Source of the DNA: a virus
Direction: 5' to 3' (one strand)
IMG/VR virus record: IMGVR_UViG_3300025785_001096
Location: 1-64,000 of that record
Length of the DNA: 64,000 bases
Position numbers and translations under genes: made by a program. Every line of letters starts with the position of its first letter. Position 1 is the first letter of the stretch. Positions 1 through 15,993 of the stretch are shown one piece after another. The notes under the pieces were generated by a model. It saw nothing but the letters and a program-made list of their open reading frames with translations. It was not told the DNA's origin and did no database searches.

Positions 1-404
1 TAACAGCGTCATCCAAACTCAACCACTTTGGAGACTTCTTCTGACAGGATAGAACAGCGTTAAACAAGGTCAGACAGGTTTTAGGAACGGCAACGGTCCC
101 ACAATGTAAGAGTCTTGGACACGCAGACTTTAAAGCGAGGTGGGAGTAGGTGGAAGCCCTGCACCTAATAACAAAATTGTCCGGCACAGGATCCGCAAGG
201 ACTGCAAAGACGTATAGCTAGAATTTACTAGTGAACTGGAATTGATCAGCCAGCTACGGGCATCTCGGAGAGGATAACTCTCCAACTAATTCAGCAGACC
301 CACACTCGCAAGAGACGATTCATCTGCTTCCGCTGTACACGAAACGTGGGATGGGCTGTGTACACGGGGTTTTTGGTTATCCTGACGCAAAAAAACCATA
401 TCCC
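1..404 (+). ncRNA. Large structured RNA candidate, 5' end cut by window
   Basis: No convincing reading frame fits this 400-base stretch, but it is full of short perfect helices: 148-152 with 162-166; GGAGAG (267-272) with CTCTCC (278-283) around a GATAA loop; AGCAGA (293-298) with TCTGCT (323-328) enclosing a GCAA-capped helix at 305-314; TGTACAC (334-340) with GTGTACA (358-364). It lies directly upstream of a tRNA cluster. Known phage RNAs of this size and setting include GOLLD and ROOL, but I cannot match a covariance model by eye. It lacks the P4 signature of RNase P RNA and a tmRNA 3' end. The strand is inferred from neighbours. Confidence 0.55.
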
Positions 405-2315: not shown

Positions 2316-2522
2316 ATGAAAAATTACGACAGCAGGCACCCACAACTTGATGTGGAAAAATGTGTGGAATTATCAGGCGGTAACAGATTTCATATGATCA
2401 TTGCAGCTTCGGAACGTGCCAGAGAGCTTAGACAAAAAAATCGTCACAGCGAACGTACAGAACACTTGCATAGTGTGATTACTTCGTTGTTGGAAATACA
2501 AACAGGCACCAAAATCGGTTAA
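2316..2522 (+). CDS. rpoZ: RNA polymerase omega subunit homologue
   Basis: This 68-residue protein aligns along its core with bacterial RpoZ. VELSGGNRFHMIIAASERAR (residues about 18-37) matches the conserved segment around GNRF and AA.RAR, and the C-terminal part VITSLLEIQTG matches the V.AL.EI..G helix of omega. In cells omega clamps the C-terminal region of beta-prime and aids RNA polymerase assembly. A phage copy could enter host polymerase and tune it for phage promoters; that role is inference. It is slightly shorter than E. coli omega because the acidic C-terminal tail is missing. An initiator-type tRNA gene begins 6 bases after its stop. Confidence 0.82.
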   Translation: MKNYDSRHPQLDVEKCVELSGGNRFHMIIAASERARELRQKNRHSERTEHLHSVITSLLEIQTGTKIG

Positions 2523-3544: not shown

Positions 3545-3634
3545 GGAGAGGTGGCCGAACGGTAAGGCAGCGGATTGCTAATCCGTACAACGTGTTAAAG
3601 CGTTGACTGGGTTCGACTCCCAGTCTCTCCGCCA
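3545..3634 (+). tRNA. tRNA-Ser (GCT)
   Basis: Acceptor GGAGAGG (3545-3551) pairs with TCTCTCC (3624-3630). The anticodon loop is TTGCTAA, there is a long class II variable arm, and CCA is encoded at 3632-3634. Confidence 0.93.
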
Positions 3635-3644
3635 AAATGTAATA

Positions 3645-3904
3645 AATAAGTTTGGGCATATGGTGTGGCGACCATCTGATACTTGTGGTAGTTTGAGTAG
3701 TGGTGTAGCGGAGCAATCCGCACCGGCCCCGTGGTGCTTTGCACAATATCGGATACTTCCGAGGGTACAGCGAATTTTAAAACCGCGAAAAAGTTGCTAG
3801 ATACTATGAAAAAGCCCGTGAGGGTGAGCCATTTGGCCAAGTCGCTCTTGGTTGGCATTGTAGTCCACAGTCGAAAAGCAGATTTTAGTATGCCCAAACT
3901 TATT
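3645..3904 (+). ncRNA. Structured RNA closed by a 16-bp helix
   Basis: Bases 3645-3660 and 3889-3904 are perfect reverse complements (16 bp) and enclose about 230 bases with several small hairpins. These include GCGGA-GCAA-TCCGC (3708-3721), GTGC-TTT-GCAC (3734-3744), TCGGA-TACT-TCCGA (about 3749-3762) and GCCC-GTGA-GGGT (about 3814-3825), two of them with GNRA-type loops. Reading frames across it are on both strands and implausible. An AATAAATA box at 3641-3648 touches its 5' edge. It follows tRNA-Ser and precedes the solute-binding-protein gene. It matches no ncRNA class I know; it lacks RNase P, tmRNA, SRP and group I intron signatures. Confidence 0.7.
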
Positions 3905-3981: not shown

Positions 3982-4953
3982 ATGAATCAAACAAGAAAAA
4001 TTCGCTGGTTAATTGCACACGAGCCTGTAAATCTATTTTTACGCACAGCCGAAGCATTTAAAGCTAAAATTGCCGAATTAACAGACAACCAATACGAAGT
4101 TGAAATTTTCACACCAACACAATACCGTGAAATGAATCAACTCGAAGTTAACCAAGCTACCCCACAACTTGACCCAATGTTAGGTATGGAAGCTGGCGAA
4201 CTAGAAATGAGCCAACTGCACATTACAGAATTGGCCAAATGGCATAGCGCAGATTTCTTTGCACTAGAATTACCATTCCTATTCAAAGATCACGATCATT
4301 GCGCTCGTGTACTAGAAGGCCCAATCGGTAAAACTATGTTAGCTAACTTGCAAGATCGTAGCCCAGCTACTGGTTTAGCATTCACATATTCAGGTGGTTT
4401 CCGTTGCGTTGCTAGCGATGCAGAAATTACAAGCCTAAGCGACTTGGAAGGTATCAAGTTTGCTACAACACACAACCCAGTAACTATCGACACAGTTGAA
4501 GCTATTGGTGCACAAGCTGAATCATTCACAATCCAAGACTTTATTACCAAGTTCAAGGAAGAGGGTTACACAGCTGATGCGTTGGAAACAACAATTCCAC
4601 GTTACCTAGCTCAGTTCCAAGACACAAGCAAGAAGTTCTTGACCAACACCAAGCACAATATGTTCTTGACCAGCATCATTATCAGCAACAAGTTCTTGGC
4701 AACTTTAGATGCTGACACACAAGCTAAATTTAACGAAGCTTGTTTGTATGCTAGCCGTTTAGAGCGTCAGTGGTCAGTTGAAGATGCAGAGAAGTTTGCT
4801 GCCGACACAGCTAGCCAATCCGATCTAGGCATTGCATATCGTGAATTGACAGCTGAAGAAACAGCTGAACTAAAAGCTAAGACAGCTCCAATCGTTGAGA
4901 AGTACAAAGACTTCTTTACAGCTGGTTTGGTTGATGGTATCATCCGTTCATAA
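3982..4953 (+). CDS. TRAP-type (DctP-like) solute-binding protein without signal peptide
   Basis: The 323-residue protein resembles periplasmic solute-binding proteins of TRAP transporters. It starts with a conserved first strand (IRWLIAHEP), has the hinge-region segment TYSGGFRCVAS (about 133-143), then SLSDLEGIKFATTHNPV (the usual DLxGxK region with R-to-T changes) and GAQAESF. True DctP proteins carry a Sec signal peptide, but this one begins directly with the mature domain, so it should stay in the cytoplasm or virion. No transporter membrane genes are nearby. It has a late box, a strong ribosome site and its own terminator, pointing to high late expression. Family fairly sure; role unknown. 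Confidence 0.72.
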   Translation: MNQTRKIRWLIAHEPVNLFLRTAEAFKAKIAELTDNQYEVEIFTPTQYREMNQLEVNQATPQLDPMLGMEAGELEMSQLHITELAKWHSADFFALELPFLFKDHDHCARVLEGPIGKTMLANLQDRSPATGLAFTYSGGFRCVASDAEITSLSDLEGIKFATTHNPVTIDTVEAIGAQAESFTIQDFITKFKEEGYTADALETTIPRYLAQFQDTSKKFLTNTKHNMFLTSIIISNKFLATLDADTQAKFNEACLYASRLERQWSVEDAEKFAADTASQSDLGIAYRELTAEETAELKAKTAPIVEKYKDFFTAGLVDGIIRS

Positions 4954-5634: not shown

Positions 5635-5677
5635 TTTTGTATTGGTAGAACTAAATATAATTATAAGGAGTTCTACT

Positions 5678-6103
5678 ATGACAATATATAAATGTCTTTG
5701 TTGCAAAAAAGAATCAGTTGCATCAAGACAAAAAGTAAACAAGTATTGCAGCATTACTTGCCAAAAAGAATTTGAATATCAGACCAGAGTCAAGCAATGG
5801 CTAGTTGAAGGCAAAGACTGGAAAGGAATGATACCAAATTGGGTACGTCGTGCGCTAGAAGAAAAATACGGTCATAAATGCAGTAGATGCCAGATAACAG
5901 AATATTATAATGAACCAATGGTTTTAGAAGTTGATCACATAGATGGAAATAGTACCAATAACACTATTAAAAATCTAAGATTACTTTGTCCAAATTGCCA
6001 TAGTCAAACACCAACATATAAAAACAGAAACGTAGGTAACGGTAGAGCATCACGAAGAAAGAAGTTATGTCAGAAGAAAAGAAGTCAAAAAATCCTTTTA
6101 TAG
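5678..6103 (+). CDS. HNH homing endonuclease
   Basis: This 141-residue protein starts at the ATG at 5678, eight bases after AAGGAG. It has an N-terminal zinc-ribbon-like part with CxxC pairs (YKCLCCKKE, YCSITC), then a classical HNH core: CSRCQ, VLEVDHIDGN (His-His), NLRLLCPNCH (zinc pair). These enzymes nick or cut DNA and spread by homing. The gene is AT-richer than its neighbours and sits right behind tRNA-Thr, typical of a free-standing phage homing endonuclease. Its 3' end overlaps the next small gene. Confidence 0.88.
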   Translation: MTIYKCLCCKKESVASRQKVNKYCSITCQKEFEYQTRVKQWLVEGKDWKGMIPNWVRRALEEKYGHKCSRCQITEYYNEPMVLEVDHIDGNSTNNTIKNLRLLCPNCHSQTPTYKNRNVGNGRASRRKKLCQKKRSQKILL

Positions 6104-6243
6104 CAGCTGCAATGGCTGCCAAAGCGGCAGCCGCTAATCCCCGAGTACCGGGCGCCCGAACAGCACAAGTGCAAAATGCCAAATTTGGCAATCAAGTCAG
6201 CACAAACAAACCAGCCAAAAAATCAGCAGGACGCGGTAGATAA
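6067..6243 (+). CDS. Small Ala/Lys-rich protein (58 aa)
   Basis: The frame begins MSEEKKSKNPF inside the end of the HNH gene (37-base overlap) and ends GRGR. The middle is Ala-rich (AAAMAAKAAAA), the C terminus basic. It has no membrane-like stretch of natural length and no known motif. Base composition is closer to the phage average than to the HNH gene, so it could be the original neighbour of tRNA-Thr onto which the endonuclease landed. Function unknown. Confidence 0.55.
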   Translation: MSEEKKSKNPFIAAAMAAKAAAANPRVPGARTAQVQNAKFGNQVSTNKPAKKSAGRGR

Positions 6244-6252
6244 TCAAAATCG

Positions 6253-6281: not shown

Positions 6282-6313
6282 AGCTACTAGTTAAACCCTA
6301 AATGGAGAAGTTG

Positions 6314-6478
6314 ATGTTTGAGTCATTAGAAATCCGCCGTGCGGCCAATGGTTTTATTTTGGTAGTTAACACCGAAGAAGAAGCCACAGAATATGTTTAC
6401 GATACCGAACGCAAATTGATTCGTGTTGTCAAACAGTATCTGGGTGAGCGAGTAAGTCGAGACGAAACAGTAGATTAA
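6314..6478 (+). CDS. Small acidic protein, unknown function (54 aa)
   Basis: The sequence starts MFESLEIRRAANGFILVV and is rich in Glu. GGAG at 6304-6307 serves as ribosome site. The stop overlaps the start of the next gene (TAATG), so translation is probably coupled. It is the first gene after a strong promoter. No family is recognised. Confidence 0.6.
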   Translation: MFESLEIRRAANGFILVVNTEEEATEYVYDTERKLIRVVKQYLGERVSRDETVD

Positions 6479-7038
6479 TGGGTTTATTAAAGACGTTTGA
6501 TTTATCTGCATATGGTTGTAATGTTTATGTAGAAACAGGTATTGGTCAAGGCAACACCTTGAGCAAGGCCGTTCCTGTATTTGAACGTTGCTTCAGCGTT
6601 GACCTAGATCGGGAATTGTTTGAAGCGGCACAAAAGAGATTTCCTACTGCTACACTTTACAATGGCCTGTCAACAGAGGCCCTGGAGCACTGGTTGTCTA
6701 CTGGCCAACTTGCAGACGATGACCGTGTGTTATTTTTCTTAGATGCACATTTCCCCAACTCTGATTTTCGCGGCGCTCCTTACAATGTTGACTCCCCCAG
6801 TGCTGTACCATTACAGCGCGAATTAGAATTGATCAAGCAGTATCGCCCCGCAGGTCGCGATTACATCATATGCGACGACTTACGAATCTATTGTCAAGGT
6901 CCGTTTGAAGAAGGTAACTGTCCGGATATACAAGTCCCCGGTGGACTGACATTTTTGAATGATTTATATCCCCGGAGTCGGATCACCTTAGACTACAGGG
7001 AAACTGGTTACTTATTAATTGATTTAAGAAATGAGTGA
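6478..7038 (+). CDS. SAM-dependent methyltransferase-like protein
   Basis: The 186-residue protein shows a Rossmann-type start VYVETGIGQGNT (about 17-28, the SAM loop), CFSVDLDRELFEAA (the acidic end of strand 2), and FFLDAHFPNS (about 84-93, strand 4). LDAHFP-type motifs occur in macrocin-O-methyltransferase/FkbM relatives that act on sugars. It opens a run of sugar-modifying genes and is coupled to the genes before and after by overlaps. Acceptor unknown. Confidence 0.65.
   Translation: MGLLKTFDLSAYGCNVYVETGIGQGNTLSKAVPVFERCFSVDLDRELFEAAQKRFPTATLYNGLSTEALEHWLSTGQLADDDRVLFFLDAHFPNSDFRGAPYNVDSPSAVPLQRELELIKQYRPAGRDYIICDDLRIYCQGPFEEGNCPDIQVPGGLTFLNDLYPRSRITLDYRETGYLLIDLRNE

Positions 7039-14071: not shown

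Positions 14072-15993
<1,922 letters not shown>

Follow-up and report, generated by a model that had tools for sequence, protein, structure and literature searches.

A previously uncatalogued structured RNA of ~250 nt, very likely an independent gene of phage tRNA regions

Phage T4 encodes RNAs C and D (species 1 and 2), two small stable non-coding RNAs located beside its tRNA cluster and on the tRNA strand (AF158101). These RNAs are not known to have a defined function. GOLLD, a structured phage and prophage RNA, and ROOL, another phage and prophage RNA, are both often found near tRNA islands, likewise without a known function (PMC12286853). Here, we describe a previously uncatalogued RNA of ~250 nt, found in large uncultured phages, that constitutes a third, much smaller family among the unexplained RNAs found beside phage tRNAs (T4 C/D, GOLLD, ROOL). 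Structured RNAs of about this length and this degree of conservation are rare, and several of those found by comparison proved to be ribozymes or the cores of ribonucleoproteins.

The element occupies positions 3645-3904 of the + strand of the window, by which we mean the whole 64-kb stretch of viral DNA analyzed here. The sequence AATAAGTTTGGGCATA at 3645-3660 finds its perfect complement at 3889-3904, a 16-bp inverted repeat (17 bp as a closing helix once a G-U pair is counted) that is the longest perfect one in the window with arms at most 400 nt apart, the next being of 13 bp. In 20 windows simulated with a first-order Markov model, perfect inverted repeats reached a maximum of 15 bp, and 16 bp in none (0/20). 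The 260-nt strand has a minimum free energy (MFE) of -86.3 kcal/mol (z = -2.74), a stability attained in 0/200 shuffles. A preliminary description had reported complementary ends of 16 bp closing a 260-base element, which held with exact coordinates, and a location between tRNA-Ser and a solute-binding-protein (SBP) gene, which held in the window (tRNA end at 3634, start of the DctP-type gene at 3982). Its claim of a "late-type box" (TAATAAATA) at the 5' edge failed: the box belongs to the closing helix P1, its counterparts in homologues (GTATTAATAAG, GTACTAATAAG, AGCAATAAG, TGTAACAAG) show no conservation, and the resemblance is coincidental. A late promoter at this edge was thus ruled out. 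The statement that the element fits no RNA class was supported, since a scan of Rfam 15 gave no family at the gathering score and, at E ≤ 10, only tRNA and chance matches; the only Rfam matches in the window are tRNAs. Four homologues (L008, L032, L016 and L014) had no Rfam match at E ≤ 1, and a short-stretch likeness to 16S/23S rRNA noticed by eye was dropped because Rfam gave no rRNA family at E ≤ 10. Searches of the open-licence literature did not turn up any account of this RNA.

Homologues were reached through the solute-binding protein, which led to a relative (L005/L011) carrying a 251-nt counterpart behind tRNA-Ser; IMG/VR was then scanned for exact occurrences of conserved blocks, which yielded the rest of a consistent set of 11 sequences, namely the window (= L009), L008, L010 (= L007/L013), L011, L012, L014, L015, L016, L017, L018 and L032. 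Each of them has a phage contig of its own (8 to 357 kb), and pairwise identity is 64-99%. A looser IMG/VR scan added a much more divergent twelfth copy (L044), located between tRNA-Tyr and tRNA-Ala inside a 15-tRNA array; the other viral contigs retrieved by looser motif scans (L019-L031, L033, L034 and L045-L072) were unrelated regions and were discarded on inspection. RNA length across family members is 251-261 nt, and each genome searched holds a single copy. The total sample hence amounts to twelve sequences from a single public collection, whose source samples we take, from our reading of the contig sources, to be mainly freshwater. Between phages whose neighboring omega-like protein is 40-53% identical to that of the window, the RNA retains 65-70% nucleotide identity. 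Outside viral contigs, blastn with L008 and L044 against 50,697 INPHARED records of isolated phages returned no homologue, a PLSDB search with L012 found none in plasmids, and scanning GTDB species genomes for exact motifs produced chance matches only. A covariance-model scan of 369 genomes of one bacterial class was also empty, although this result is weak because filters were stricter and no positive genome exists. A host origin of the RNA is therefore unsupported.

Comparison of these sequences shows an RNA of ~250 nt with a 17-bp closing helix, a hairpin (hp1), a stem whose asymmetric internal loop (AUAC / GUYGAAAAG) is invariant, and a three-way junction bearing the P4 and P8 arms. RNAalifold predicted 64 pairs on the 11 sequences, 25 of them with two-sided changes, and the addition of P4 by hand brought the consensus to 69 pairs. 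In this consensus, 96.3% of cells are paired and two-sided compensatory changes occur in 30/69 pairs, compared with 10.7 ± 2.1 pairs in shuffles and 2-5 when partners were slid by 1-3 columns. Helices follow the order P1, hp1, P2, internal loop (AUAC / GUCGAAAAG), P3 and three-way junction; besides an optional hairpin, the P4 arm comprises P5, which encloses hairpins P6 and P7, while the P8 arm comprises a GNRA-type hairpin, P9, and P10/P11. The 11-sequence alignment (A2) and the covariance models (R1/R2) cover the whole element, which scores 260 bits against R1. The structure being maintained in at least 12 phage genomes, 3645-3904 (+) is very likely a real and independent RNA gene, one whose structure is under strong selection.

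All features below are on the + strand. P1 pairs 3645-3661 with 3888-3904 and is followed by hp1 (GGU-GUGGCG-ACC, 3662-3673), in which two of the three pairs covary and the loop columns are invariant. The preliminary description had proposed a search of viral metagenomes for homologues and a covariation test of the closing helix; homologues were found, and the test gave strong support, with two-sided changes in 7/17 P1 pairs and 100% of cells paired. P2 (AUCUG 3674-3678, CAGAU 3879-3883) is almost invariant in A2, as is most of P3 (3681-3688 with 3865-3871) apart from one highly variable covarying pair (UA/AU/CG/GC), so these two helices remain largely untested by the 11 close homologues. Between them, the internal loop opposes AUAC (3679-3682) to GUCGAAAAG (3870-3878), both invariant in A2. 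In P4 (GUGGU 3700-3704, ACCGC 3782-3786), all five pairs show two-sided changes; this helix fails only in L015/L016/L018, whose sequences allow a shifted 7-bp helix, CUGUUGC/GCAACAG, instead. An optional inserted hairpin, GCGGAGCAAUCCGC (3708-3721), has an equivalent in L032, GUGAAGCAAUUCAC, whose stem changes are compensated, and is missing from the other members. P5 (3726-3729/3763-3766), enclosing P6 and P7, delimits the most conserved block (3726-3766), which is shared with L044; one pair of P7 (UCGGA-UACU-UCCGA, 3749-3762) covaries in 5 sequences. The P8 arm (3804-3863) contains P8 (3804-3809/3858-3863), the GNRA hairpin P9 (3814-3825) and P10/P11 (3828-3856), with two-sided changes in 2/6, 3/4, 3/4 and 4/5 pairs for P8, P9, P10 and P11, respectively. 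No non-nested helix with convincing compensatory changes, i.e. no pseudoknot, was found in the alignment, and a GUUGC/GCAAU pairing spotted by eye fails in L008, L015 and L032.

Folding of close homologues one sequence at a time recovered P1 reliably (mean probability ≥ 0.92), with inconsistent inner helices, and missed P4 or P2 in most members. Single-sequence folding being unreliable inside P1, the comparative structure departs from it there, and our model of the interior rests on comparison rather than on energy. The inner hairpins of the preliminary description accordingly held only in part: only P9 (GCCC-GUGA-GGGU) is of the GNRA type, and the others of the single-sequence fold are no more than partly right. 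The divergent copy is scored by R1, which was built without it, at 26.5 bits (E = 1.6e-6, E-values being rough). Its unconstrained MFE structure contains UUUGG/CCAAA in the place of P2, a P3 stem, AAGAAC/GUUCUU (P4), CCCC/GGGU (P5), the UCGGAUACUUCCGA hairpin (P7) and a P8 stem, a topology (P2, P3, P4, P5, P7, P8 around a three-way junction) that matches the family with different sequences; AUAC and GUUGAAAAG of the internal loop are kept. The outer closing helix of L044 has a different sequence (GUUCUA/UAGAAC is possible) and is absent from the MFE structure, and the folding energy is only weakly better than that of shuffles (z = -1.7). The family definition (covarying P1, P4 and P7-P11 plus the conserved internal loop) is met, and we extended it to L044. 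As to known families, Rfam gave none for L044 at the gathering threshold. The tRNA array that holds the divergent copy also includes, at 199-315 (-) of this contig, a sub-threshold match (33 bits, E = 1.6e-4, gathering 69) to YrlA, a bacterial Y RNA-like family.

In the window, a CCA-encoded tRNA-Ser(GCT) (3545-3634, +) ends 10 nt upstream of the RNA and is probably co-transcribed with it. tRNA-Ser is the nearest upstream tRNA in close homologues, and in 5/11 loci its CCA end is separated from the downstream RNA by 5-10 nt. In the other six loci, a sigma70-type -35/-10 pair precedes the RNA, with 9-12 nt between the end of the -10 and the RNA; by direct reading, these pairs are TTGACT-N17-TATAAT (L032), TTGACA-N17-TATACT (L008), TTGCAT-N17-TATACT (L015/L018, with a similar one in L016) and TTGTAT-N16-TATAAT (L012). 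Substitutions are spread equally over the three frame positions (45/40/46), with many indels of 1 nt, which excludes a coding region; minus-strand ORFs over the element extend into the antisense of tRNA-Ser and arise from the conservation of the RNA. Two proteins of 58 aa, encoded at approximately 6068-6244 and 6303-6479 (+), are syntenic with the RNA in 10-11/11 loci; one is strongly basic (NPRVPGARTAQVQ...KKSAGRGR), and a Pfam search with both gave no match above cut-off. Other features of the region deserve mention. At 764-844 and in homologous loci of L008, L014, L015 and L016, ARAGORN called tRNAs whose A34 anticodons (Leu AAG, Ser ACT, Phe AAA) are unusual; these may be real or due to anticodon misplacement. 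An HNH endonuclease gene just after tRNA-Thr (5642-6103, +), with weak similarity to the HNH region of IscB, is likely a free-standing homing endonuclease, and a phage-encoded GroEL chaperonin is found at 14374-15993 (+; PHROG 5725, E = 2.5e-181).

Could the RNA be a cis-acting riboswitch or leader of the downstream SBP gene? Riboswitches are frequent among the complex conserved RNAs that precede transporter genes, and both in the window and in several relatives, the RNA is followed within ~40-80 nt by the start of the gene for the DctP-type TRAP solute-binding protein (3982-4953, + in the window). A riboswitch should however keep the same gene family downstream, and here the downstream gene varies among phages, being an SBP gene, a tRNA-Thr or a different gene: tRNA-Thr follows at 18-24 nt in L014, L017 and L008, and an unrelated gene in L032, while the SBP homologue of L017 is located 2.3-3.3 kb upstream. 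In several relatives, moreover, the interval from the RNA to the next gene contains TATAAATA-like boxes reminiscent of T4 late promoters, a probable late promoter from which the SBP gene could be transcribed without the RNA. The tie to the SBP gene made in the preliminary description thus failed as a general rule, and the riboswitch reading is largely refuted and very unlikely. A transposon-like (MITE-like) inverted-repeat element or a DNA-level structure, suggested by the perfect terminal repeats, is all but excluded: the interior helices covary and the element is single-copy per genome in a fixed tRNA-region setting, which refutes this reading, and promoters point into it.

The main rival, which we consider unlikely, is a 6S-like decoy regulating host RNA polymerase. 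It owes its rank to an omega-like gene that, in 8/9 records tested, is found on the same strand at 0.2-2.7 kb upstream; a phage-encoded omega subunit is unusual. The 68-aa protein of the window (2316-2522, +) matches Pfam Rpb6 below cut-off (E = 1e-4) and does not pass the NCBIfam rpoZ cut-off, which two homologues, from the L017 and L032 genomes, do pass. Against this reading, record G001 has the RNA without an omega match, the structure is a branched three-way junction rather than the 6S rod with a central bubble, and there is no Rfam 6S match; the tRNA genes and the two small ORFs are also syntenic, so the omega linkage is not specific. A ribozyme, for instance a derived RNase P-like RNA processing phage tRNA precursors, is suggested by the tRNA neighborhood and by the invariant internal loop and GNRA hairpin, which hint at a tertiary fold. 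The P1/P3/P4 order of RNase P also resembles the succession of closing helix, hairpin, long-range helix and multibranched core. Yet the RNase P, group I and group II families gave no match at E ≤ 10 for the element and at E ≤ 1 for four homologues, and GAGGAAAGUCC / ACAGAA, conserved regions of bacterial RNase P, were not seen in A2. With no catalytic evidence, this explanation also appears improbable.

We therefore favor, by a modest margin, an independent trans-acting phage ncRNA gene of the tRNA region, a reading whose functional part is inferred in the absence of transcript data. That the RNA acts in trans rather than as a cis-regulator is likely. Given the tRNAs around it, our first guess at its function is a role in translation or tRNA metabolism; this guess rests on analogy and falls somewhat short of being probable. 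Under this favored reading, host RNA polymerase would transcribe the RNA either from a sigma70-type promoter of its own or by read-through from tRNA-Ser, in which case tRNA end-processing would release it. The closing helix P1, being long, would shield the ends, and this inferred protection would allow the RNA to accumulate as a stable species. The invariant hp1 loop, the internal loop and the P5/P7 block may form a binding or active site for a protein, the ribosome or another RNA, through which the RNA would assist the phage takeover of translation or RNA metabolism alongside phage tRNAs; no partner or substrate being known, this functional half remains an analogy. A bolder reading, a new catalytic or ribosome-acting three-way-junction RNA of large phages that would process or guard the phage tRNA pool or reprogram host ribosomes during infection, is unlikely but not excluded. 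The RNA gains in interest from its presence in a phage contig that has clearly diverged, there too inside a cluster of tRNAs, and from a length of ~250 nt that makes synthesis and testing easy.

Set against the known systems, the RNA resembles each in part. Bacterial RNase P RNA has a similar order of closing helix, adjacent hairpin and long-range helix, but its universal CR-I/CR-V nucleotides were not seen in A2 and no Rfam match was obtained at E ≤ 10. T4 RNAs C and D are shorter (139 and 119 nt versus ~250 nt here), and an unfiltered R2 search of AF158101 69500-74500 gave at best 5.5 bits, within rnaD and at chance level; homology with them is thus undetectable. GOLLD and ROOL share the phage/tRNA-island setting and the unknown function. 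However, GOLLD exceeds 800 nt in many members and forms a multimeric nanocage, and the solved example of ROOL, of 659 nt, contains multiple pseudoknots, whereas the present RNA has neither an Rfam GOLLD or ROOL match nor a covarying pseudoknot. Both are two to three times longer, and their criteria (Rfam model match, length > 600 nt) are not met. The RNA thus likely occupies the niche of T4 C/D and GOLLD/ROOL while being, by the tests made, a member of none of them.
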